This document shows, in pieces, positions 593 to 28,357 of a stretch of 28,586 nucleotides of DNA (position 1 is its first letter; each line of letters opens with the position of its first letter). The notes beneath the pieces are model-generated. The model ran no database searches and was not told the origin of the DNA. It saw only the letters and a list, made by a program, of their open reading frames with translations. Source of the stretch: Kalaharituber pfeilii (Eukaryota > Ascomycota > Pezizomycetes > Pezizales > Pezizaceae); assembly GCA_015179045.1 (NCBI GenBank), contig WHUZ01000210.1, positions 1-28,586 on the forward strand, read 5' to 3'. Position numbers and translations under genes: made by a program.

Positions 593-655
593 AATGGAGT
601 GCAAAGGGCGGCATGCGATTAATGAAATTAAAAAAAAAAAAAAATGGAGTGCAAA
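593..655 (+). mobile_element. micro-retroposon, family 1, truncated inside the hairpin
   Basis: AATGGAGTGCAAA occurs at 593-605 and again at 643-655 (perfect 13 bp TSD). Between them lie only 37 bases: GGGCGGCATGCG, ATTAATGAAATT and a run of A. The body therefore starts just after the loop of the family-1 hairpin, so only its 3' arm was copied. It is nested inside the half-LINE ORF1 at the left window edge and is younger than it. Confidence 0.9.
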
Positions 656-992: not shown

Positions 993-1069
993 CAGAGTCG
1001 TCATTTTTCATTTTTTTATATCAGTACTCGCATGCCGCCCCATGGGCTATGGCGAGACAGAGTCGGCAT
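993..1069 (-). mobile_element. micro-retroposon, family 1
   Basis: Imperfect 12 bp TSD (CAGAGTCGTCAT at 993-1004, CAGAGTCGGCAT at 1058-1069, one mismatch) flanks a short T-rich tail and the full family-1 hairpin on the minus strand. The body begins one base before the outer stem arm CTCGC. The mismatch in the TSD and the short tail suggest an older insertion. Confidence 0.8.
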
Positions 1070-3309: not shown

Positions 3310-3694
3310 AACCAAATATATCCACCATTGCATCAAGAACCTTCGTAATTTTGATCGCCCAAGGCACATTGGAATGCCTTCAGCTGCAATCCATCCCATC
3401 GCTCTCCGCTGTCCTACCATCTTTGCACTCTCCCTCCAAACGTCCTTATCCGATATTCTTCAATTGCAATTTTTGCCTCAATTTTCACAAATTGCAGCTT
3501 GTGCTTTGCCCTCTCGATCTCGGCTGTCACACCTCGCCATAGCCCATAGGGCGGCATGCGAGTAATGATAAAAAAAAAAAAAAAAAGATCTCGGCTGTCG
3601 CCTCTAAATTTGTCTTTTCGACGATACCAACAGGATCGGGCGTGCCCTGCATGATACATCCCAGAGTTCCCCAGAGCAGCTGGATAGTCGCCAT
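3310..3694 (-). pseudogene. small broken gene of unknown function
   Basis: Read on the minus strand from an ATG at 3694 (MATIQLLWGTLGC...), one frame runs through an alpha-helical, charged stretch (EKTNLEATAEIERAKHKLQF, then VKIEAKIAIEEYRIRTFGGR). It reaches an in-frame TAG at 3416-3414 and continues in the same frame with protein-like sequence (SGERWDWIAAEGIPM) to about 3310. The 71 bp retroposon plus TSD at 3529-3599 breaks the frame in the middle of the helical part, since 71 is not a multiple of three. One insertion and one stop make this a likely decayed gene. It belongs to no family I can name; the helical segment could be part of a DNA-binding or coiled-coil protein. Confidence 0.45.
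3516..3599 (+). mobile_element. micro-retroposon, family 1 (type example)
   Basis: Perfect 13 bp TSD GATCTCGGCTGTC at 3516-3528 and 3587-3599. The 58-base insert starts four bases before the outer stem arm CTCGC. It has the inner stem GCCC-ATA-GGGC, the closing arm GCGAG, then TAATGAT and 17 A. It is the cleanest example of the hairpin-plus-poly(A) class and disrupts the small minus-strand gene. Confidence 0.95.
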
Positions 3695-3699
3695 TGAAG

Positions 3700-6237
3700 T
3701 TACTAGTATAAGGCAAATGTACCGCGGGAGGACGACGCTGGAGTTTCAAAAATGGCAGTGGTAGCTTAACATTGGGTGACTTGCGAGGGGAATTTTCGAA
3801 TGGAAGGGTAGGCCGAAACTGATGAAGCCCTCTCAAGCAGCACTGTTGGGTGTGTATTTACGTGGTGTCATGGACTAGCGCAAGTATGGAAGTAAAGTTC
3901 AAGGCTACTGTACTCCTTTAACTTGCTATATTAAAGAAGTCAAATCCGAACTTAAGCTTGTTGCCGCAACTTGCCGCCTCCTGCTTTCTCTGCAGCCTGT
4001 CCAGTCACGCTGAACAAGAGTATGACGTCAGTGAAGAGGCTGCAAATTATAATCTTACATAGATTGTAATGTATAAAGTGTAGTTCTGGTATTTATACGG
4101 AGGCATAATGCATATAACTGACATATACTGTAATTCACTACCACCTCGGCACCCTATCTGCGTAACTTTCGCGTTCAGTATCTTAAAAACCAGAACAGAA
4201 GGTTTTATAAAATTCACTTCACAGAGGCGCTAATCTACAAGCTATTTTATGCATATAGCACCTCTACTATCCCCGAAAAAAAGCTCTGAAGGAATTGTAG
4301 CACAGCACATTATCAGATCTGATGTGGTGCGTTTAGATAGGAAGTGAGGTGTCATTATTTAACCACGGAAGTCCTGTTATCAGGGTGGGAAGGGTGGTTT
4401 GCGACAGTGTGCCATGAACGCAGAGGAGACGGAGGTAGTAATTGGTTAGTCAGTCAATGCAGCCCGCATCTGACCCATGTTGAGATTTGCGGGGAGTAGT
4501 GCCGCAACTACGGATACTAGTATCCAAGGTGGCGGCATGGTACCGTAATGTATCTTCAATTAGACGAGATCCTTATAGTGCGCAATGAGTGTTGAGACGC
4601 ATCGGAAGCTTACATGAATGGCTCGTTAGGCGAGGGCAAGTAATCATATGCTAGTACACAAGCATGCTCTGATCCTAGCAGTGTAACATTTTCGAGCTAA
4701 ACTCATTTAGGCTCAGTGCCCAAGGTAAGAAACCCTCCTGAACTTTGCAGCCTTATCAATATTGGGAAATATACGCGAGCCCTGCAGGCGAGTTACCACT
4801 TCTGCTGTCCAGTCTGCTGCCGCTAAAACTGCTGCTACTCCTCACTCTGAATGCGCATTTAATATATCTGATAACCTCGCATACAGCTCTTCGCCATGAC
4901 AGGGCAGGCTGACTCTAACACGCACGTGGTTGGGCAGGAGGCCAATTGTGATATCTTACGGTTACGTAAGTGGGTGGATTTTACCTCTTACTCCATCGTA
5001 TGACTTATAATGGTGGACCATGGTGGACCATTCCTGCAATATTCCTAATTCCCACAACTGCATTGGGTGAGCGTGAAGACATGAAGGTCCACATGAATCA
5101 ATAGAGATATGATAAGCGACTGAAGTGTCGCGTAATAACGCCCACTGGCACTAAAAGTGTTTCTCCTCCCAACTATTGGGACTCCAGCAGCCCTGGGGAC
5201 GCCACTAATTACCGCTTGAAGGAACTGAGCTGGAAGCAATGGCACGTGCTGTATTAGTAGAAGCGCGCTCGTTAGGGAGATATGCAGATTATCAACCGAG
5301 GTCGGGTCTAGGGCACAGCAAAATTGGCTTTTACTAGGCCATACACCATTAAGACCAACTATGGAGCTTCTGTCTATCCCCACCACTGTTGAGATAGTCG
5401 AATATTTGCTGCTGCCACAAAGTGCGGTACACGTATTATCGATAGATGATTGGACTAAATTCTTGCTCGTAGTCGCTATCGGACTCTAACATTAATTAGT
5501 GAGGCCGAATCCTTAACAACGTCTGCATTTCATACCACTTACAATATTGTCCCTAGGTGAGTAGGTAGCATGTATATTTTCAACTGTTTCACTAGCCGAA
5601 CGCACGTGCTCGCAGCAGGGTAGTTTAGGTATGTCGCCTGCGTTAAACTACTCTTAGCGCACAAGCTCCCAGTAACCTGGGTTCGGCGACGCAGCCGCCA
5701 AACCTGGATTCTCCTTCCCCCCTGTTGGAGGCCTGAATGTGGGTCACAATAGCAAGATCTGCATCTCTGACCACCTGATGCCGAACAATTTGAGGTAATT
5801 CACCCCGGTCAAAAGGACTGCTAATGCCACACCGGAAGGGCAGCGACCGGCACTCATGCGGGAGTCCCGGCTGTCATGATCAGTCAAGTCAAACATTCAG
5901 TTTCACAACGACAAATTCCATTCCATTCACGTGCATGAAAAACAATAATTCATGCTTATTGGCATGTAAAATTGAACTAGAGGGTAACATACCATACAGG
6001 TGCATGCAATACGTTAAGCTTTTTGGACCACGTGTGTGCTGATCAAGTTTTCGCTTCCCGCTAGACCAGGTCAAACTTCGTGCCATCTCGTTTGTACATG
6101 CATAGCTACCCCACTTCAATTCCGTGATTACTACACCACGTCCAGGCATAACCTAACCTAAGTTAGTTGCCACAATCAGCCCCAGATCTGGTAGGTTACT
6201 TAAGAAATTCCTAGCATTTATTCGTTACGTTCTGCAC
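3700..6237. other. long gene-poor stretch
   Basis: About 2.5 kb with no convincing reading frame and no domain-like translation. It holds a degenerate family-2 tail (4870-4906), a perfect 12 bp palindrome ATCAGATCTGAT near 4312-4323, and a doubled 10-mer TGGTGGACCA near 5012-5032. The last few hundred bases are presumably the promoter of the transporter gene; no clear TATA box is seen there. Confidence 0.5.
4870..4906 (-). mobile_element. old degenerate family-2 tail
   Basis: The reverse complement reads GCCCTGTCATGGCG, AAGAGCTG, TATGCGAGGTTAT. It aligns base for base with the family-2 hairpins at 10895, 11094 and 21500 but carries several substitutions. No poly(A) and no TSD remain, so this is probably an old insertion that has decayed. 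Confidence 0.55.
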
Positions 6238-8152
6238 ATGTACGACGGCGCGCCGCAAGCTGTGCCCAACAGTCCTGGAGTTGGGGAAGATAGCAGCAGT
6301 CCTACAGATTCCTCTGCTCCTTTACTCCCAATTCGCGACAAGATTTCCGACGGCGCCGCTCCCGAGGACAGCCTCCAACAAGCCTCCGAGTTCAGTCGTG
6401 GCTCCGGCGAAGAAGATCGTTTTGATCTCGAAGACATTGACGATAACGAACACGAAGTCCACGCAACTCCTACCACATCCCTTCTTCGCCGTTGCCCCAC
6501 CGACACCTGCGCAATGAAAAGATTCTCAGGGACACATATCTCGTCAGCCACCCCCGACGACCCCAACTCCGACCTTGATGCCCAACGCGTTTCCGAGCCT
6601 GATCTCCCTATCTTCAGCCGCTCTCGATACTCAGGCGCCGTCCTGTTCAACGCCATAACCTTCCTCCTCCCGGCAATCCATGGCACGCTTGCCAAGCTCT
6701 GGATCGCGAACATCGATAGCTCGATGGTTGCCACAACCGACATCTACACCTACATTGGGGTTGTCGCCGAAGTTCTGAACGAAGGCCTCCCGCGCGTCGC
6801 GTACCTGGTTATCGGGAACAAGTCGACGCAATCTGTCCGGGCGCGAATCCAATTCTCCAACACTTTGATTGTGGTTCAAATGTTGCTAGGCTTAATCATG
6901 TCGGTTATCTTTGTCTCATGCGCCACAAACTTCGCGGACGTATTTGTGCCAGAACCTATCAGGAAGGTGTCGATAACGTATGTGCGAATTGCGTCCTTCA
7001 CGTGTCTTACTAGCGCTACTGAGGTGGCGGTGGCGGCCGCCACGAGGGCCCTAGACAAGCCGGATGTGCCACTTGCAATAAGCGCGGTAAGGACGACGGT
7101 GAATATTGTGCTGGAAATGCTGTTTTTGTCGACATTCAGGGTATGGAGGCGTACCCCGCCGACACCGAATATGCAGGCGTGGATTAGACTCGTGTGTGAG
7201 GCGGCAGCAGCGTTGACAGGGCTTGCATTCTATCTTGTCAAGTCGCGACGGTTGGTGGTTGGGGCGCGCAGTGAGGAAGACCAAGGTCCGCCGACGGGGC
7301 CTTCTATGAACGCCCTATTGACGCTGGCAAAGCCTGGTGTATTCACATTTTTGGAATCGGCGATGCGGAATGCAATCTATCTGTGGTTGATCAGCGGAGT
7401 CATCAAGATGGGCCTGACGTATGCAACGGCATGGGGAGTATTCAACACCATTCGGTGGGGCCTCGTAATGGTGCCAGTGATGTCACTCGAGGCAAGTAGC
7501 GCAACATTTGTCGGGCATCGGTGGGGAGCATGGAAGCAAATAGTCGGCGTTGCTGGGGCGAGGGATCCAGGGAAGGCAAAGGCGACCAATCGGGATTTAT
7601 GGTGTAAGTGCTCTTATGTCCCTTATTGATCGATATCCGGGACAATCAAGGGCGTCAGGCTAACGGGGTACCGGCCACAATGGCCATGTTGCGACAGTCA
7701 TTTGCCGCCCAGCATTCCTTTCCATTTGCCTTGTGCTTGTCGTCGAAATCCCCTTGCTTCTATTCTTCACTTTCTTCGCCATCCAGCCATTTGCATACTA
7801 CATCTCGGCCTCAGACGATGTTGCTGTCGTAGTCAAGAAGATGTGGCGCACAATCGATTGGTGCTACATCTTTTACGGCGTCTCTACGCAGCTATCAGCA
7901 ATCCTAATTGCAACCCGTCCCGGGATGTACTGGTGGAAGTCTTTCATATCGAACCTCATCTGGGACTTTCCATGGGCGATTGCAGTGAGTAGGATTCCGG
8001 GCATCAATGAGAATAATGCGTGGAAGTGGCATGCGATAATCTTTGGAGGTAGTTTGGTGCAGGGTTTTTTTGTCACTGTGGCGATGGTCGGGTTATGGGG
8101 CTGGTTATTGAGGAGAGGTAAGGTTGTGTTTGGTTTAACGGCATTGGAATGA
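6238..8152 (+). CDS. MATE-type membrane transporter, one intron
   Basis: Exons 6238-7603 and 7698-8152 give 606 residues. The 94 nt intron (7604-7697) has donor GTAAGT, branch-like GCTAAC near 7660 and acceptor GACAG. Splicing keeps the frame across W-F-I-C. Residues 1-125 are acidic and Ser/Pro-rich and probably cytosolic. From about residue 129 there are about twelve hydrophobic segments in two halves, with NEGLPR in the second helix of the first half and a conserved-looking WRTIDWCYIFYG in exon 2. This layout fits the MATE branch of the MOP superfamily, which exports drugs or metabolites using an ion gradient; the substrate is unknown. It stands alone, with no linked biosynthetic genes, and there is no sign of decay. 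The family call rests on topology and motif feel, not on a search. Confidence 0.75.
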
Positions 8153-8917: not shown

Positions 8918-8981
8918 TTACAGCAACGGTCGGCATGCGAGTACTGATAAAAAAAAAAGAAAAAAAAAATTACAGCAACGG
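8918..8981 (+). mobile_element. micro-retroposon, family 1, truncated inside the hairpin
   Basis: Perfect 12 bp TSD TTACAGCAACGG at 8918-8929 and 8970-8981. The body is only TCGGCATGCGAG, TACTGAT and an A-rich tail. Its 5' end lies just after the hairpin loop, almost the same place as in the copy at 593-655. Confidence 0.9.
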
Positions 8982-9451: not shown

Positions 9452-9515
9452 AAGGAACCGCCATAGCCCTCAGGGCGGCCTGATATTAAAAAAAAAATAA
9501 AAAATAAAAGGAACC
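9452..9515 (+). mobile_element. micro-retroposon, family 1
   Basis: An 8 bp TSD AAGGAACC (9452-9459, 9508-9515) encloses a body that starts three bases inside the hairpin, at GCCATAGCCC. The inner stem is GCCC-TCA-GGGC. The 3' flank is altered (CCTGATATT), and the tail is a mix of A and AAAT. Confidence 0.8.
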
Positions 9516-11081: not shown

Positions 11082-11158
11082 TATAAACTAGCTCTGCCAT
11101 GGCGGACAGCTGCAAGTGGGGTTATGTGAAATTAAAAAAAAAAAAAACCTATAAACTA
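11082..11158 (+). mobile_element. micro-retroposon, family 2
   Basis: 9 bp TSD TATAAACTA at 11082-11090 and 11150-11158. The insert starts one base before the hairpin arm CTCTGC, with partner GTGGGG that pairs through G-U wobbles, and ends GTTATGTGAAATT and A. Its start at the hairpin base is the same behaviour as in family 1. Confidence 0.9.
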
Positions 11159-11836: not shown

Positions 11837-11846
11837 ATGTTGCATG

Positions 11847-11891
<45 letters not shown>

Positions 11892-11903
11892 GTTGCATGC
11901 AGA
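11837..11903 (-). mobile_element. poly(A)-only insertion with perfect TSD
   Basis: ATGTTGCATGCAGA occurs at 11837-11850 and 11890-11903 (perfect 14 bp). Between the copies are 38 T and one A, nothing else. In the minus orientation this is a poly(A) tail with no body. The TSD length matches the other insertions here, which argues for target-primed reverse transcription rather than simple slippage. The family cannot be assigned because no body is left. Confidence 0.9.
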
Positions 11904-13079: not shown

Positions 13080-15875
13080 ATGACTCTCTTTTCAACCTTA
13101 CCTCTTGATATTTTAGTCGAGATTATTAAGAACCTAAGTCCACGAGATCTGATTGCCTTACGCCTTGTTGACAAAACCCAATACGCAATTTTCACCAGTG
13201 ATGCGGTCTGCCGCGACGGGATCAAAATTTTTTTTGGATCAAGTTTCTTGTCCACTCCCTCCCGCACAATCAGAAGTATTGAATCACCTAGTGCAAAAGA
13301 GATATTTGACAGGCTAGTTTCCCTTTGCCTTAATTTCATGAAATACCCTTCATATGGCATGGCAATTTAATGCTTGTAGTTCGAATTCCTGCAAAACAGC
13401 ATTTACCACCGCCGAGATAGGTTTCGTCGAGGCTGCCCAACGGGTTTCACCTGTATTGCGAATCAACCCGTGAGAGAGAAAGAAAGTCACCTAATCGCAA
13501 GAGACCCAGATGTGCTCATTATCGCACATAAATTTCATTTGAAACTTTTTCCACTTACTCCAGGGCGCACCCTCTGTGAGCTTCACCATCATGGCAGCTT
13601 CTCTGCCCCTCCTCTAGACCCTGACCGCAGTACCAACACCAGTTCCCACTTGCCTTGCGTGACTGGATACACGATCGAGTTCGACTGTGCGGTAAACCGG
13701 GCACGGGCCTTGATTGAACAGGCTGATCTACAGGCTGGTCACAGACCATTGACGCATGCTTTAATGGGGGCCCTGGAACCTGTGGCAGACGAAAACGTAC
13801 ACAAAGCTGCTAGGCACTTGCACGAGCAAAAATCCATCCATCCGAAACAATGTGAAGGAGCCAAAATCGAACGCCTCGTAGCGGCACAAGATGGGCGATT
13901 GTTAGTATTGTCGTCAGAATGGCAAACTAGAAATTCAACTGGCGAATGGTTGGTGACTCCAGCCATCTATCCGCAGATCTTCACCAAAATAGAGGACTGA
14001 ATCTTACCAGGACGAAATGGGCTTCAACTAATCCTGGTAATATGCAAGCTGGTGAGCGGATTGATGACCGAGATGCCGGGCTGGGCATATATAAACATGT
14101 GCCACTACCTCCATTGTTTGCCGTCATCGATATCGACCTAGATTTAGGTAAGGAAAGCCTACAATTGAACTCCGCCACTCCAGACTCCATTCTGCAGATG
14201 TGGCAGTTAGACATCTTGAATGAATCCTTGTTCTACCAGCAGGTCGGCTCCCGCCATGTGCAACGTGATAGTCATACGATTGTGGCTGCGGTCAACCAAC
14301 ATTACACCATTTACAAGACTTGTGCGCTTGGCTGGATACCATGCTCCCAAAATGCACAAGCAACCCGCGTGGACATCGTGATTGTGCGTCACACCGATGC
14401 TGGAGGCGTTCTGTCAAAGAGCGAGCTCAATGCACGAATGCAAGTTGTGCGTGGTGCTGGCGCGGACTGGCCGCACCATTCACGCCGTGGAGCTCTGGGG
14501 GCAGATCATGACGGCGTCCTTTTTTTTCATTGTTATGAGACCATGAGGGGTTCTAGGTTGTTGGATGAAGCACACAGTTACCAGCAGGTAGTGTTAGACG
14601 TGTACAAGCTGAGCACATGTTGGGGGATAAACAGTGTCGACAATAATGAATCCTCATTAGGACCGACCAAAATTGCAACCATGCCATTATGGGGCACACA
14701 TGACATTCACTGGGACCGCGATGGAACGCACAAGCTCAACGCCAATTGGTGAGTCTTTCACCCCCTCACCCTTTACAAAAGTCTTAGCATCGTAATTTTT
14801 TTTTTTTTTTTTAATATATATGGAGTCGCATGCCGCCCTATGGGCTATGGCGAGTGTCATCGTCATTGATCGCCATCCTCTGCCTAACAACGTTAATAGC
14901 TGTCCCACTGATGGTGAGCTAGCCTCTAAACCTCGACAGGGACCGCGTTGCTGCGACCCATTACTATCACAATCTTGCAATTCATGTGCCGCAGCATATC
15001 CCTCCTAGTAGGATCGCGACAACAGTATCACCGTTACAGTGACTGATAGGATACTACTGGGAACGCGTATACAAAACAGCAGCAACCTCCAGCCACTGAA
15101 CTGGGTTTATGCCACACAACGATTCACTCTACCTTGCTCTGAGATAGCTCTCCGCTCGCTCATTGCAAACTCGAACCGGACCAGCAGCAGGTGGAAGCGT
15201 CTTCCCGCTGTCGGCAATTGTGTGTCAGGGCAGCCCAGCATCGGACTTTGCTGTGACAATGAAATGATGCTGCTATTAACGTCGGCATATCTGCCACTCA
15301 GTCGCTGGCGTTATGTGACCCTTGACATCAACTACCCCGTTTTTGCTTTGCCACATGAATTCCCAGGGCTTTCTATGGAGATATCGGAACCTCCACCGAA
15401 CACAGCGCTGGGGTTCTATTTAGGGGAGCAAAGTTGTAATAGGGGACGCGGGTTTATCACAGGGATTATCACACCAGTAGAACTTATCGGCGGCCATTGC
15501 AATCCGTATATTCTACAAGCCGTTCCGTATATCAGAGGTCGAAAATGCCCAATGGTTAGATTAGGCCGAATCCCTTGGCTTGTGAAACTTGAATTCAAGG
15601 GAGGGTACGATGTTCTCACGAGAATGGGAATGACTCACTACACTGAATATTTCAGGCAGCTGATATTGGGAAATTGTTTTAATAACACTTCCGGGCACGA
15701 GGAGCAGAGCCCTACTTTGGTCTTGATGACTAAGGGAGTGAGATTGCCAGGAGGCAATTCCGTGTGGATTCGGGGAGCAGGCGACGGTTGGCTAATCTAT
15801 ACAGTGGAAAGTCTAGTGCCAGCCCGCACGCCGCTGATTGCGGAAAATGCGTGGGTTATTGTTCGCTATGATTGA
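13080..15875 (+). CDS. F-box protein with long unrecognised C-terminal region, probably five exons
   Basis: ATG at 13080 opens an F-box: FSTLPLDILVEIIKNLSPRD then LIALRLVDKTQYAIF. F-box proteins link substrates to SCF ubiquitin ligases through Skp1. The remaining about 750 residues match nothing I know. A continuous frame needs four introns: 13317-13379 (GTTTCC..GTAG, weak donor), 13949-14010 (GTTGGT..CCAG), 14749 to 14787 or 14854 (GTGAGT), and 14914-15039 (GTGAGC..TTACAG). Each removes stops or a frame change and keeps phase; with the 14854 acceptor the total is 813 codons including the stop. The second half is protein-like throughout (HDIHWDRDGTHKLNAN, WRYVTLDINYP, GRGFITGIITPVE). A micro-retroposon sits at the third intron's 3' end. 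It could instead be a decaying gene, or an F-box gene next to a separate one; the first two introns are the least certain. Confidence 0.5.
14788..14867 (-). mobile_element. micro-retroposon, family 1, at an intron-exon junction
   Basis: TSD CATCGTAATT (14788-14797) and CATCGTCATT (14858-14867), one mismatch. The insert is a T-run and the hairpin in minus orientation, starting three bases before CTCGC. It begins directly after the TAG that would be the original 3' splice site at 14785-14787. Using that old acceptor now gives an in-frame TAA within the T-run. A GCGAG acceptor at the right edge of the insert (14854) restores the frame. Confidence 0.8.
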
Positions 15876-15909
15876 ACTTTCAGTTCAGAGGGTTTGATGA
15901 GAAGGTACA

Positions 15910-17370
15910 TGTAGAGCCATTGTTTTTTTTTTTTTTTTTTTTTTTTCTTTCATTACTCGCATGCCGCCTAAAAGGCTATGGCGAGGTATAAGTAAACTGC
16001 CTAACTATCCAACTAGGTACAAGAGAGTGTCTGAAACAAGGGAGGGATGTCTGACGCATGGTGTCGAGCCCGTCTAAACCCTTTTCCTGTCTGGCTCGTA
16101 CACCTCCGACTTCAACCATTTCCCGCCAAGCCTGACCTTTCCGGGCTCCACCTTTGTCTTCGTGTATAAGACTATGGAGCTAGCCGTCTTGCCTTCTTCG
16201 TCAAGTGTCTGCTTCCGTCGCAACCATCGGATGCCCGATGTCTTTTTGTCTAGGGTCTGGTTGTCTTCCTCAAGCCATTTTCTCACCTTCTCCAAGTTTC
16301 TCCTGGTGGCGACGCCATGGATGACGATGCCTGTGGTTTGGGGAGAGGGACGGCTGTGTGTCTGGCTTCGGGGGCGTGATGGTGCTTGGGGTTGTTTTTT
16401 GTCGTGGTGCAGGGGTGGGAGTTGATGTCGGTTCGGGTGTTGGGGAGGCTGGGGAGACCTCCCGTTCGACCGGGACCAGCGGTTTCTTTTTTCCCTTGGT
16501 CCTTTTCCTCCTGGTGGACTTGGGAGGGGTCGGGTTGGTGGGGTTGGGTGTTGCAGGAGGTGTTGTCGCTTTGGGGATGGGTTCCTGCGATAATAATTGG
16601 TAGTGGTGGAAGTCGGAGGCTTCCGGTCTTGGTTCCGCCGGTGGTGTGTCTACGTTCGTTATGGGGCTGAACCCCAGTGGCTGAGTCTCTTGAAGCTCTG
16701 GTGCCGTGGCTATGGTTGTGATGGGGCTAAACCCCATTGGCTGAGGCGGAGGTGGGGCCAGGATCCCGTGTTCCTCGGAGGGGAGGCACTGTCCCGGCTT
16801 TAAGCCGTATACCGCTGCTGAGCGCTCTTCGATCCGGATGAATAGTGTCGCGCCTGGTCCCGGGGGATTGTTGTCTTGTGCTCTGTATTTCCATAATGCC
16901 GCGATGACTGCCTGCCAGCTTGTGCCTGCGGAGGCTAGTTTGTCTAACTGATCCAGCCACTGTTTGTCGAAGTCCGGCGGGTCCGTCGCCTGGGGAGAGG
17001 ACACCGTCGCTTGGGGAGGGGGCGGCGGGGGGAGGGTCGAACTTTTCTTCTTTCCCTTAGGCATGATTGGCTGTAAGTCCTTATCCGTGGATGTTGATAG
17101 GCGCTTGGCACCAGCGGGGTGTGGGTGATGTGTTGGCAACGGAGGTGGTGAGCTGAGGGATTCTCGAGATTTCGCCCCTCGGGGGAAAATCGCACTGTCC
17201 GGTATTTGAGAATAAAAATTAGATCAAAAGACTCAGCTCGCTGAGAGCTTTCGATCTATGTAGGTTTCAGCGGGGGGAGCGTTGTGGTTGTGGAGTCACT
17301 TCCAAACGCTCTTCCTGTGGTGGTTGTCGGCGGTGTTCCGCTCGTGAGAACTCTGTTGTAGAGCCATTGT
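15910..17370 (-). mobile_element. complete ORF1-only half-LINE, 1,433 bp, perfect TSD
   Basis: TGTAGAGCCATTGT at 15910-15923 and 17357-17370 is a perfect 14 bp TSD. In minus orientation the element has a 5' region of about 290 bases with a 37-nt hairpin (17257-17221), one ORF1-type gene (17064-16074, frameshifted once), a short 3' UTR, the family-1 hairpin with inner stem GCCT-TTT-AGGC, and poly(A) (T-run at 15923-15946). No reverse transcriptase or endonuclease is present. This is therefore a full-length non-autonomous element carrying only ORF1, comparable in layout to mammalian HAL1 elements. It inserted just downstream of the F-box gene stop codon. Confidence 0.85.
16074..17064 (-). pseudogene. 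LINE ORF1-like protein of the half-LINE, one frameshift
   Basis: The start ATG at 17064-17062 gives MPKGKKKSSTLPPPPPP. A helical segment (FDKQWLDQLDKLASAGTSWQ) and an ERSAAVYGLKPGQCLP stretch follow. Next come a Pro/Thr-rich region with two copies of GFSPIT (60-base period, DNA copies at 16661-16685 and 16721-16745) and a basic patch (RRKRTKGKKK). Near 16345 the reading shifts to the frame that encodes GIVIHGVATRRNLEKVRKWL, the RRM-like domain, ending VRLGGKWLKSEVYEPDRKR and stop at 16074. No CCHC knuckles follow. The domain order fits a LINE ORF1 RNA-binding protein lacking its C-terminal zinc part. The shift may be a simple indel after insertion; a programmed shift is possible but not supported by an obvious slippery site. 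Confidence 0.65.
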
Positions 17371-17388: not shown

Positions 17389-17464
17389 GGTATCCATTAT
17401 CGCCATAGCCCACAGGGCGGCATGTGATTAATGATATAAAAAAAAAAAAAAAAAGGTATCCATT
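17389..17464 (+). mobile_element. micro-retroposon, family 1
   Basis: 10 bp TSD GGTATCCATT at 17389-17398 and 17455-17464. The body begins exactly at the outer arm, here ATCGC, which pairs with the changed partner GTGAT. The inner stem is GCCC-ACA-GGGC. The tail is ATATA then 18 A. It lies 18 bases from the half-LINE's right TSD. Confidence 0.95.
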
Positions 17465-18985: not shown

Positions 18986-20449
18986 GATTTCGACCTCCAC
19001 TGGAAAAGCCGGATCGAGAAAGCCAGGAAACTCATGGGCGCGCTGTCTGGGCTAGGCAACTCTCGTTGGGGTATGAGTCCTATCTCATGGAGAAAGGCTT
19101 ATACAGGCATGGTAAGGGCAGTGGCCCTTTGGGGGTCCCAAATTGGGTGGAGAGGCCAGAAGCAGTGGAGAGAGGAGTTTGAGAAGTTGCAGTATCAAGC
19201 ACTCCGCAAATGCACTGGTGCAGTCCGAGGGGCAGCGAGAGTAAAGGTCGAGGCCATTGCTGGAGTAGAGAGTATAACGACGATTCTTGATCAAGGCCAA
19301 GCAAGGTATGCACTGAGATCAGTGAGGGACCCTACAGGAGTCGGAGATCTGTGGCCGGAAAGCTTCACTGGAATGGTAGCCCCAGACCCAGACAGAGAGG
19401 GTGAGAGGGGGAGGGACTGGAGAGACTTTAGCTTGGGTTATGCTACAGACAAAAATGATGGGTTTGAGTCAGTAGCTGGAAAGATTGCCAGCACTCTCGA
19501 GGTCAATGAGGAGGAGAGAGTGTCCTGGGGGCAAGATGTACACCTACCGCAGACAGGCATTGAGGTCATTGACCTCAAGCTGTGTAAGGAAGACGCCCCA
19601 GCCAAATGGGAAAAGGCCATCAATGAGGCTAAGGGTGACTCGGTGGCTATTTTTACAGATGGCAGCCGCAGTGAGGAAGGCGGTGTTGATGGCGGATGGT
19701 GCTGGAGGCAGGTGGTAGCAGGTGAGTCAGAAGGGTCCCAGTGGGTAGGCACAAAAGCAACTGTGTGGGACGGTGAGGTCTCAGGAATGAGGGGTGCCCT
19801 TGAAGCAGTTGATGGCAGTACAAAAGTACTACTACTCGCAGACTCTCAGGCAGCTATCAGTGCAGTCCAGAAAGCAGGAAAAACTGGCAAGGCAAGAACT
19901 GCAGACCTAGCGCGGGTGATAGAGCTGATTGCAGAGAGGCGGCAAAGGTTAAGGGAGGCGGATGCAGTGAAGCTGGCATGGGTCAAGGCCCACGTAGGGA
20001 TAGAAGGCAATGAGAAGGCAGATGAGTTGGCCAAAGAAGGGGCCAAGTGCATGAGGTATGATGGGCAGGCCACTGAGGGGGGGCTGCGTCAAGAGTTAGT
20101 TCGACAAAGAAAAGAGGAGAGGGAGCGTGCAGGGTTTGGGAAGGGCAAATTCGTGAAGTGGGGCAGGAGAGCACTCACAAATTACACATGGCTGCGGACT
20201 GGAAAAGGCGGAGCTATGTGGAGGAGAATGGTCAGTGGCGAGGAGGTACAATGTACATGTGGTGAGGCATGGAGTGGTGAGCATGTGGTGTTCAGGTGCA
20301 CCGAACTGGAGCGACCCCAGAGGAAGGACAAAGATGGGGCGCATGTCACCTGGCAGTCCTGGGAGGACCTAGAGGAGAAAGGGTGGAAGCAAGAAGGTGT
20401 GGAGGGCGACCCGGTCGAGTACTGGTTTGCCTGCCTCGATCTGGGGTAG

Positions 20450-20596
20450 CCGGGGACGGAGAGCACTGAGTGCTCAAAATGTGCATGTAGATTCCGTAGT
20501 TAGGTGTTCCAAACCTGGCCCGGGTATATGGGTCCCTGCCATAGGCTGATAGCCTGTATGCGGGGTTACGTGAATAAAAAAAAAAAAAAAAAAAAA
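20450..20596 (+). mobile_element. 3' UTR, family-2 hairpin and poly(A) of the LINE
   Basis: After the ORF2 stop there are about 125 bases of 3' UTR. They end in the hairpin with outer arms CCCTGC (20534) and GCGGGG, and inner arms GGC and GCC, then TTACGTGAAT and 21 A. The same hairpin is the body of the short family-2 insertions. This ties those short copies to a LINE with RNase H. No TSD longer than GTTCC was found for this copy. Confidence 0.85.
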
Positions 20597-21005
20597 GTTC
20601 CTTCTCCTTCCGCTTTCTGTCCACCTCTGTTCTGTTCCAGTCATACAGGCACGAATAGTACCACTTGCCAGACAACCTTACCTTCACTGGTGTTTGGCTA
20701 TCCGATTCCACCTCCCCCTCCAGGTAGATAACAACCGAGCTAGCCTTCTTTCCCTCCCTCCTCTCTTTCTTCACCAACCATCTTGCTGCAACAATCTTTC
20801 CCATCCCTGGGTTCACATTCTCCATCGAATCTCTTACTTTCTCGAGTTTCTTTGTCACCGCAATTCCATGCACTACGATCACACGACCAGATTGTGGGTT
20901 TTTTTTTTTTTTTTTTTTTAATATCATTGCTCGCGTGCCGCCTGATAGGCTATGGCGAGGTCAGATTGTGGGAGTGTCCTTTCCTTTGGGATTGGCTTCA
21001 AGTGA
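20597..21005 (-). pseudogene. LINE ORF1-like fragment, family-2 type, interrupted
   Basis: Minus-strand frame with the RRM-like ORF1 domain: GRVIVVHGIAVTKKLEKVRD, ARWLVKKERREGKKASSVVI, VKVRLSGKWYYSCLYDWNRT, then a basic EVDRKRKEKE. It breaks off at 20597, where the plus-strand LINE's poly(A) begins, so its own stop and tail are not adjacent. The micro-retroposon at 20888-20973 interrupts it: removing insert and one TSD joins PKERTLPQ to SGRVIVVHG in frame. The ORF1 family is the same as in the half-LINE at 10.5-11.3 kb. Confidence 0.65.
20888..20973 (-). mobile_element. micro-retroposon, family 1
   Basis: Perfect 11 bp TSD CAGATTGTGGG at 20888-20898 and 20963-20973. The insert is a T-run plus the hairpin in minus orientation, starting two bases before CTCGC. 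The inner stem is GCCT-ATC-AGGC, so both arms have changed together. It sits inside the family-2 ORF1 fragment. Confidence 0.95.
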
Positions 21006-21475: not shown

Positions 21476-21565
21476 CAGCTGTGACTCTTTTTTTTTTTTT
21501 TTTTTAATAGATATATCATGTGACCCCGCGTGCAGTTGTTCGCCACGGCAGGGCCAGCTGTGACT
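21476..21565 (-). mobile_element. micro-retroposon, family 2
   Basis: Perfect 11 bp TSD CAGCTGTGACT at 21476-21486 and 21555-21565. In minus orientation the body begins one base before the hairpin arm CCCTGC, closes with GCGGGG and ends GTCACATGATATAT plus A. Like the 11082 copy, it starts at the hairpin base. Confidence 0.95.
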
Positions 21566-26998: not shown

Positions 26999-27079
26999 AT
27001 GTTACGGCGCCATCGCTATAGCCCACAGGGCGGTAAGCGATAAATGATATAAAAAATAAAATAAAAAATGTTACGGCGC
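26999..27079 (+). mobile_element. micro-retroposon, family 1
   Basis: Perfect 12 bp TSD ATGTTACGGCGC at 26999-27010 and 27068-27079. The body starts one base before the outer arm, here ATCGC, and the partner arm is GCGAT. The outermost pair is thus A-U where most copies have C-G. The inner stem is GCCC-ACA-GGGC. The tail is A with interspersed T. Confidence 0.95.
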
Positions 27080-27181: not shown

Positions 27182-27290
27182 TTCGCAGGTTTCTCTCCAA
27201 CTCAAGATTCACAACTGGGTTGAGTAGCTTTCATGAGCACTACCACACTGAAAAACCCCTTTCGTTCTGACAGTCATTGAAATTGCACGG

Positions 27291-28357
27291 ATGGCCCTTC
27301 CCAATTTTGTGTTTTTGGTTGCGATAACGCTTCTGCTGCTGGTCTCAAATGTCTCAGCACTGTTGTCTCTGGACGAGACGCTGAGGAGATATGGCCTCGA
27401 CCAGTGGGCTAATTTTCTTGCAGAGAATCCTCATCCAATCTATAAACTCAAAGACATCACTGTCTTTGCACCAACAAACGACGCTGTATATGCATATCAA
27501 AAAGATCCGCGCATAGTTTTCCTCACGGGAAACTCCAAGAAGAGAGATACTCTGTCGAAAGAGATACCAATAAATCATTTTTGCTATCCAATCTGGTGCG
27601 GGGGTGGAAAGCCTATGACTCTGAGAGTCGAAGGAAATGCGCAGACAATTAACCCACGAGGGGTGCTCTTCTATACAGGTGACATGACAAGCGTCGGAGA
27701 CCCGATTAACGCGAAAGTGATGCGGCGAAAGGGACAAACGCAACGCTACTCCTACGGTGAGATAACTTCTGGTGGCGGAGTGAAAGCACAGATCCTGCGA
27801 AAAGCAATACAGTTCCGGAATGGATGGATTTACCCAATAGATAGGTAAGTGTGTATGCCGCAAGATCGAAGGCGCTCGTTAAAATCGCATATCACACAGT
27901 ATGCTACCTGTCCACTAACAAATGTGCATGTACTTCTAGGCTTTTCGTCTTCCCCTCCACCTTTGCAGCCACCATCGAATGGCTAGGCTACAGCTACCTG
28001 GATGAAATTTTTGAAAGGATCCCCGAATCACTAAAATCCATATCCAGTGCAAAGGGTGCCACATTTTTTGCCCCCACACCTAATGCCTTTTGGGCCTGGG
28101 CCCGCCCAGGTTTTTTTAATTCCACCAAGGAGGAATTGCAGGCTTTCATAGACGACCACACTATTATCGGCGATTTTATCGGATATACCCCCAAGCTACG
28201 GCACGAGGTAACTTACAGAACCCAAAGCGGCAATAGGATCATAGTGAGATGGCAAGGAAACGCTACATTTCTCAATGATTCCCTTATTGTCGGTGACAAT
28301 TACATCACAAGCAATGGCGTTATTCAAATCATTAATAAGGTTCAAACACGTATCTAA
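27291..28357 (+). CDS. secreted protein with two FAS1 (fasciclin) domains, one intron
   Basis: Exons 27291-27844 and 27940-28357 give 323 residues. The 95 nt intron (27845-27939) has donor GTAAGT and acceptor TTCTAG, and splicing rebuilds an Arg codon. Residues 1-23 (MALPNFVFLVAITLLLLVSN then VSA) are a signal peptide. The first FAS1 domain (about 25-160) has ITVFAPTNDAVYAY and a late INPRGVLFY strand. The second (about 187-323) has GATFFAPTPNAFWAW, HTIIGDFI and the closing GVIQIINKVQ typical of FAS1 ends. FAS1 domains mediate adhesion at the cell surface or wall; fungal members are often cell-wall or secreted proteins. No GPI-type C-terminus is seen, so it is probably released or wall-bound. 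Length is usual for a two-domain member. Confidence 0.85.

Follow-up and report, generated by a model that had tools for sequence, protein, structure and literature searches.

Hairpin-plus-poly(A) micro-insertions carrying the 3′ end of LINEs in the truffle Kalaharituber pfeilii

What causes the 5′ truncation of LINEs is an old question, for which RNA decay and enzyme failure have both been proposed. An insertion at positions 3516-3599 of contig WHUZ01000210.1 of Kalaharituber pfeilii (assembly GCA_015179045.1) raises it anew; the stretch analysed, positions 1-28,586 of this contig, is referred to here as the window. The insertion consists of little more than a hairpin and a poly(A) tract between two copies of a target-site duplication (TSD), and the question is what it derives from and what sets its 5′ end. 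Its parts are as follows:

3516..3528, + strand: 5′ TSD, 13 bp, sequence GATCTCGGCTGTC, an exact repeat of 3587-3599
3529..3586, + strand: family-1 hairpin-base micro-insertion, ACAC + CTCGCCATAGCCCATAGGGCGGCATGCGAG (30-nt hairpin) + TAATGAT + A17, called from sequence and TSD
3533..3562, + strand: hairpin CTCGC-CATA-GCCC-ATA-GGGC-GGCAT-GCGAG, outer stem 5 bp, inner stem 4 bp, -13.9 kcal/mol
3587..3599, + strand: 3′ TSD GATCTCGGCTGTC, an exact match to 3516-3528

The hairpin 36-mer of this unit occurs 267 times genome-wide. The window holds further insertions of this family (family 1) and of a second hairpin family (family 2), namely:

3516..3599, + strand: family-1 micro-insertion described above, 5′ end 4 nt 5′ of the stem, 13-bp TSD
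993..1065, - strand: family-1 micro-insertion, 5′ end 1 nt outside the stem, 8-bp TSD
9452..9515, + strand: family-1 micro-insertion, 5′ end 3 nt into the 5′ arm, 8-bp TSD
14788..14866, - strand: family-1 micro-insertion, 5′ end 3 nt outside the stem, TSD of 6 bp exact or 9 bp with one mismatch
17389..17464, + strand: family-1 micro-insertion beginning at the stem, ATCGC/GTGAT variant, 10-bp TSD
20888..20972, - strand: family-1 micro-insertion, 5′ end 2 nt outside the stem, 11-bp TSD
26999..27079, + strand: family-1 micro-insertion, 5′ end 1 nt outside the stem, 12-bp TSD
593..655, + strand: family-1 insertion of 3′ arm and tail only, beginning right after the loop, 13-bp TSD
8918..8981, + strand: family-1 insertion beginning in the 3′ arm, 12-bp TSD
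11082..11158, + strand: family-2 micro-insertion (GCTCTGCCATGGCGGACAGCTGCAAGTGGGG...), body 43 nt, TSD TATAAACTA
21476..21565, - strand: family-2 micro-insertion, body 49 nt, 11-bp TSD

The first-pass annotation had placed seven family-1 starts within four bases of the stem base (993, 3516, 9452, 14788, 17389, 20888 and 26999) and two more just after the loop (593 and 8918, with TSDs of 13 and 12 bp). All nine were re-derived here, each with a TSD of its own as had been stated, the one at 14788 being imperfect by one mismatch. A tail scan of the window returned 16 family-1 3′ ends, two of them doubtful (2243, and 3070 on the minus strand), and missed the copies at 9452 and 26999. At 11837-11903 on the minus strand, a poly(A) tract of 38 with a single other base lies between 14-bp repeats (ATGTTGCATGCAGA), apparently an insertion of the tail alone. 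Elsewhere in the window, a gene for a MATE-family transporter, whose first part matches Pfam MatE at E 4.6e-07, lies at 6157-8152 (+ strand) and may contain an intron near 7600, and 27252-28357 (+ strand) holds a possible two-exon protein whose first part is weakly fasciclin-like (E 2.5e-04, just under the Pfam cut-off).

The assembly comprises 78 Mb in 360 contigs. Our sample of 319,426 bases consisted of the window, 30 stretches of 3 kb around exact family-1 tails, and 20 stretches of 10 kb picked randomly on contigs in which family-1 tails were already known (stretches labelled L001-L050). A scan blind to family found 205 poly(A) tracts, of which 107 were flanked by a TSD (exact, 9 or more), compared with 19, two of them with a body under 120 nt, when the downstream sequence was moved by 300 nt as a control. 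With individual TSDs, and with chance excluded by this control, the copies are separate insertion events, as previously proposed. Bodies of the 107 measure less than 30 nt in 12 cases, 30-59 nt in 44, 60-119 nt in 4 and more in 47; the 12 shortest are partly unbelievable, and a low-complexity pair in L048 that is counted there is not believed. By eye, 43 of the 44 bodies of 30-59 nt belong to family 1 or 2. Family-specific scanning gave 140 tails (111 of family 1 and 29 of family 2, several doubtful), 101 of them with a TSD against 12 in the shifted control. It should be noted that shares of micro-copies are upper estimates, since short copies are over-represented in the sample: a long TSD requires 10 exact bases, and upstream sequence in L001-L030 extends no farther than 1.5 kb. 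The bias leaves the peak within about 110 nt unaffected. Genome-wide, there are at least 3,952 matches to the family-1 3′ end and at least 3,602 to the family-2 3′ motif (each with up to 2 mismatches), and 1,039 exact family-1 hairpins with a free loop.

A 5′-end histogram, called for in the first-pass annotation and made here on the genome sample, is not smooth and has a narrow peak at the stem base. Among 82 family-1 copies with a TSD, 32 start between -4 and +2 of the first stem base (14 at -2 and 8 at 0), 14 between -160 and -5, all of these at -11 or farther out, and 24 farther upstream; 11 lack the 5′ arm, i.e. end inside or after the hairpin (two of these, the tails at 2243 and minus-strand 3070, are doubtful), and one is an artefact. 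About 9 convincing copies, the two doubtful tails not among them, terminate in the 3′ arm or loop. Nested hairpins in L001 at 471 were set aside in these offset counts and in the paralogue count below. Per base, the density of family-1 ends in the peak is 51-fold that of the next 156 nt upstream. Family 2 behaves alike: 12 of its 19 copies with a TSD start at -3 to 0, 3 at -85 to -29 and 3 farther upstream, and one lacks the 5′ arm. Ordinary random 5′ truncation of LINEs would agree with the longer copies, which end at scattered positions, but we regard it as practically untenable for a peak only a few bases wide (binomial p about 2e-33 against an even spread over -160 to +2); the clustering is unlike such truncation, as had been argued from the window.

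The share of family-1 copies that start at the stem base is 12/30 at loci chosen by exact tail and 4/32 for tails in the random 200 kb. With exact CATAG hairpins, 3 of the first 30 matches listed start there, the other copies of those 30 showing no TSD at the stem base within the flank available. The share depends on subfamily and sample, and micro-copies, where present, mostly share one end position. As a separate observation, family-1 copies of 161-199 nt from several subfamilies (L008, L011, L025, L029, L032, L042, L050 and window 3250) seem clustered with 5′ ends at about -120 to -156, a grouping of small numbers that was noticed post hoc (7 copies at -136 to -156).

The position of the peak draws attention to the hairpin itself. 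The family-1 unit reads (A)C + CTCGCCATAGCCC-ATA-GGGCGGCATGCGAG + TAATGATAT + poly(A). Its fold has an outer stem of 5 bp and an inner stem of 4 bp, separated by an asymmetric internal loop and capped by a loop of 3 nt, with an energy of -13.9 kcal/mol that is equalled in 7 of 200 shuffles. Family 2 (GCCCTGCCATGGCGAACAGCTGCAAGCGGGG + TTACGTGA + poly(A)) has a predicted fold on the same plan; for two of its hairpins, 9 and 31 of 200 shuffles fold equally well. Covariation was scored on 80 of the 82 family-1 rows, with L001 494-531 and one duplicate L032 row omitted, which gave 58 distinct sequences. In these, 98% of stem cells are paired, and two-sided changes occupy 26 cells compared with 5.5 in shuffles, a number that none of 500 shuffles reaches. 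Two of the five covariation measures do not rise above chance, namely the pairs with a two-sided change (3 vs. 2.1 in shuffles; 101/500) and the further pair types (10 vs. 9.0; 91/500). In the first 100 free-loop copies listed from the genome, the uppermost inner-stem pair is C-G in 61, T-A in 33, T-G in 3 and mismatched in 3, so that 97 are paired against a shuffled mean of 77. The family-1 hairpin looks conserved as an RNA structure, and it displays the 3′ tail trait of stringent-type LINEs, a conserved stem-loop with compensatory changes. Two hairpins without the inner stem-loop (CTCGCCATAGCGGCATGCGAG type) were also seen (L042 minus 8725 and L002 1005-1048), one in a long-looking copy without a TSD call and the other in a micro-copy that still begins 2 nt before the stem.

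The target sites of stem-base micro-copies show the same TSD length and nick preference as those of long LINE copies. Over both families, the median TSD is 12 nt for stem-base copies (n = 41), 13 nt for long copies (n = 43) and 12 nt for in-hairpin copies (n = 9, some doubtful rows included), and a pyrimidine precedes the nick in 93%, 84% and 100% of the same groups, respectively. The TSDs span 8-16 bp, and such variable-length duplications around a poly(A)-ended body are a trait of LINE-derived target-primed reverse transcription (TPRT). A MITE or foldback DNA transposon was ruled out on the poly(A) end and on TSDs of 8-16 bp rather than of fixed length.

The insertions also have insert-free counterparts, a comparison that had been suggested for related strains and that was made here with paralogues. 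For 58 short copies, the two flanks were joined and matched to the window and L001-L050, the filled site's own matches being excluded; 10 of them have a non-self match that crosses the insert-free junction at 70-94% identity and with 0 to 6 small gaps. Five of these alignments were read (L011, L022, L003, L017 and L008). The L011 copy has an insert-free relative in L049 (93.75% over 160 nt), the L003 and L017 alignments are clean at the junction, and that of L008 is weak there. In L022, a copy with the CAGAG loop variant lies antisense within a LINE RNase H frame, and the interrupted frame runs gap-free in the window (19877-20036) and in L018. The LINE in the window comprises:

18992..20449, + strand: C-terminal portion of a LINE ORF2 that includes an RNase H domain (Pfam PF00075, E 8.9e-16); its best match is a K. 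pfeilii protein at 94%
20534..20596, + strand: family-2-type hairpin and poly(A), the end of this LINE

The four best matches of its protein are K. pfeilii proteins (94-96% identity). RNase H, the domain read in these copies, is also found in long family-1 copies in L018 (E 1.1e-13; a subfamily other than CAGAG) and, weakly and below the Pfam cut-off, in L040. In addition, TSD-flanked elements of 1.41-1.50 kb with a family-1 3′ end occur at three places (window about 15908-17370, - strand; L042 about 6125-7598, + strand; L013 about 26-1523, + strand). The one in the window has a frame without a Pfam match, which we would guess to be ORF1 only, and these elements are perhaps non-autonomous half-LINEs.

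Do the micro-copies derive from such LINEs, or do they form a lineage of their own? The CAGAG variant provides the cleanest test, because here long and micro-copies share a source. It has 25 exact copies genome-wide, of which 24 were read: 11 start at -2 to 0 with a TSD, 2 at -33 and -39, and 11 beyond -60. Upstream sequence is constant among the long copies, and the CAGAG body is common to micro- and long copies, i.e. the micro-body is the 3′ end of a LINE. Judged by its sequences, CAGAG is a young LINE subfamily that yields both outcomes, and the micro-copies are evidently LINE-derived and not a separate micro-SINE. A self-standing micro-SINE, in which hairpin-plus-poly(A) loci are transcribed and spread independently, had been raised in the first-pass annotation. 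It could draw on the first sample, in which 4 of 4 CAGAG copies were micro, and on the lack in 24 of 25 CAGAG copies of the A/T context of other LINEs. CAGAG was rejected as a micro-only lineage when 20 further copies were read and 11 long ones were found within the subfamily. The A/T context, present at -3 to -5 in only 1 of 25 copies, misled as a shortcut only because CAGAG copies carry a G at the third base before the stem; an estimate of the micro share across the genome from this context was discarded on account of that G. No Pol III head (tRNA, 5S or 7SL) was found, an Rfam scan of the window was empty at gathering scores, and no SINE lineage distinct from a LINE was found, the candidate tested, CAGAG, including long LINE copies. 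The independent micro-SINE is left unsupported, and we consider it very unlikely.

Taken together, the repeats are insertions of the last ~40 nt of LINE RNA, which comprise a hairpin that covaries and the poly(A) after it. As to how they arise, we give an even chance to the reading that the LINE's own enzyme copied a short template RNA predicted to start at the hairpin base. By analogy with stringent LINEs, the enzyme would bind the hairpin as a recognition tag; the LINE RNA would be cut, or its 5′-to-3′ decay would halt, at the bound or folded hairpin; and the resulting stub of hairpin and poly(A) would retain what TPRT requires and be copied to its end. Human L1 ORF2p holds a stem-loop that lies 5′ of a poly(A) tract and opens the base of the stem into a fork (PMC10830416). 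If the truffle LINE acts likewise, a bound hairpin would shield the RNA end from decay.

Reverse transcription proceeds from poly(A) through the 3′ arm and the loop to the 5′ arm. The main peak lies past the copied hairpin, a position that favours a short template RNA over a stall at the hairpin entrance. A template beginning at 0 to -2 would account for both the sharpness of the peak and the abrupt drop upstream. Stalling at the hairpin, the mechanism suggested earlier, can claim the roughly 9 convincing ends in the 3′ arm or loop, which are outnumbered by the 32 at or just past the 5′ base; on the short-template reading, ends within the 3′ arm would reflect genuine stalling or decay that went further. 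Against a short template stand these same copies and the apparent poly(A)-only insertion, which resemble early enzyme stops, and also the difference in stem-base share between CAGAG (11/24) and CATAG (3 of the first 30 matches listed; Fisher p 0.004).

Those early ends are what a series of early stops would give if the enzyme began on full-length LINE RNA and often quit after copying the hairpin, in an abortive phase before escape. It might, for example, run up against the 5′ strand of the stem base that it is itself gripping, or lose its anchor; the splaying of the first stem base pairs by L1 ORF2p points the same way (PMC10830416). A structural block, however, predicts stops on the 3′ side, whereas 32 copies end at the 5′ base or past it, compared with about 9 inside the hairpin, and upstream ends drop 51-fold per base with no tailing off. 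We hold an abortive phase to be a serious possibility, though one that we would sooner doubt than adopt. Host repair or cDNA folding, in which the fresh cDNA would fold back into its hairpin and be joined at that point, would fit the position, since a cDNA ending at the stem base could self-fold; it seems improbable given that the junctions read contain no inverted duplications and that junction microhomology is by eye no rule (up to 3 nt in L011 and L027). A fixed-length ruler from the tail may also set the 5′ end, as the distance from stem base to poly(A) is nearly equal in families 1 and 2.

Carried further, the short-template reading would mean that cutting or decay regularly turns LINE mRNAs into a free hairpin-plus-poly(A) stub, ~40 nt long before its tail, which serves as a normal TPRT substrate, and that the 5′ ends of a large class of insertions are set by a structural RNA end and not by enzyme failure. 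We advance this wider proposal tentatively, at somewhat short of an even chance; within it, the stub may be the smallest template that still carries the recognition tag of the enzyme.

Conserved 3′ stem-loops are known in LINEs and their partner SINEs, fungal Tad1 included (PMC5135761, PMC4176376 and PMC3747384), and compensatory changes in monocot LINE/SINE pairs and the frequency of 5′ truncation among LINEs are both described in PMC3747384. What would be new here is a distinct size class of insertions that ends at the hairpin base; 3′ stem-loops and 5′ truncation as such are known. Hairpin-bounded LINE insertions were not found in the literature searched, most subscription journals lying outside its reach, in agreement with the earlier impression that fungal micro-elements of this kind are undescribed. 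A fixed, structured break point, present in two hairpin families and in one young subfamily, makes the truncation question directly testable and would indicate the minimum size of a retroposed unit. Ordinary repeat annotation may well overlook repeats this short.

Among known systems, Alu is the product of a Pol III gene, whereas the truffle unit comes from the LINE's own 3′ end. Alu RNA mobilised by L1 resembles it in that the template is in both cases a stem-loop followed by poly(A) (PMC10830416). In stringent-type LINEs and their partner SINEs (UnaL2, ZfL2 and the fungal Tad1 pairs), a conserved 3′ hairpin likewise adjoins the tail (PMC5135761 and PMC4176376); here, hairpin and tail are the whole insertion, with no tRNA-like or 5S-like head. 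The fungal SINEs AfuSINE2-1a and Mg-SINE have the LINE-type 3′ end and the TSDs in common with the truffle units and, unlike them, carry a tRNA-related head (PMC5063351 and PMC3747384). Finally, the truffle units are like 5′-truncated LINEs arising by TPRT in their poly(A), their TSDs of ~12 bp, their nick context and their source subfamily, but differ from them in that truncation peaks within a few nt of the hairpin base and leaves a body of ~40 nt.
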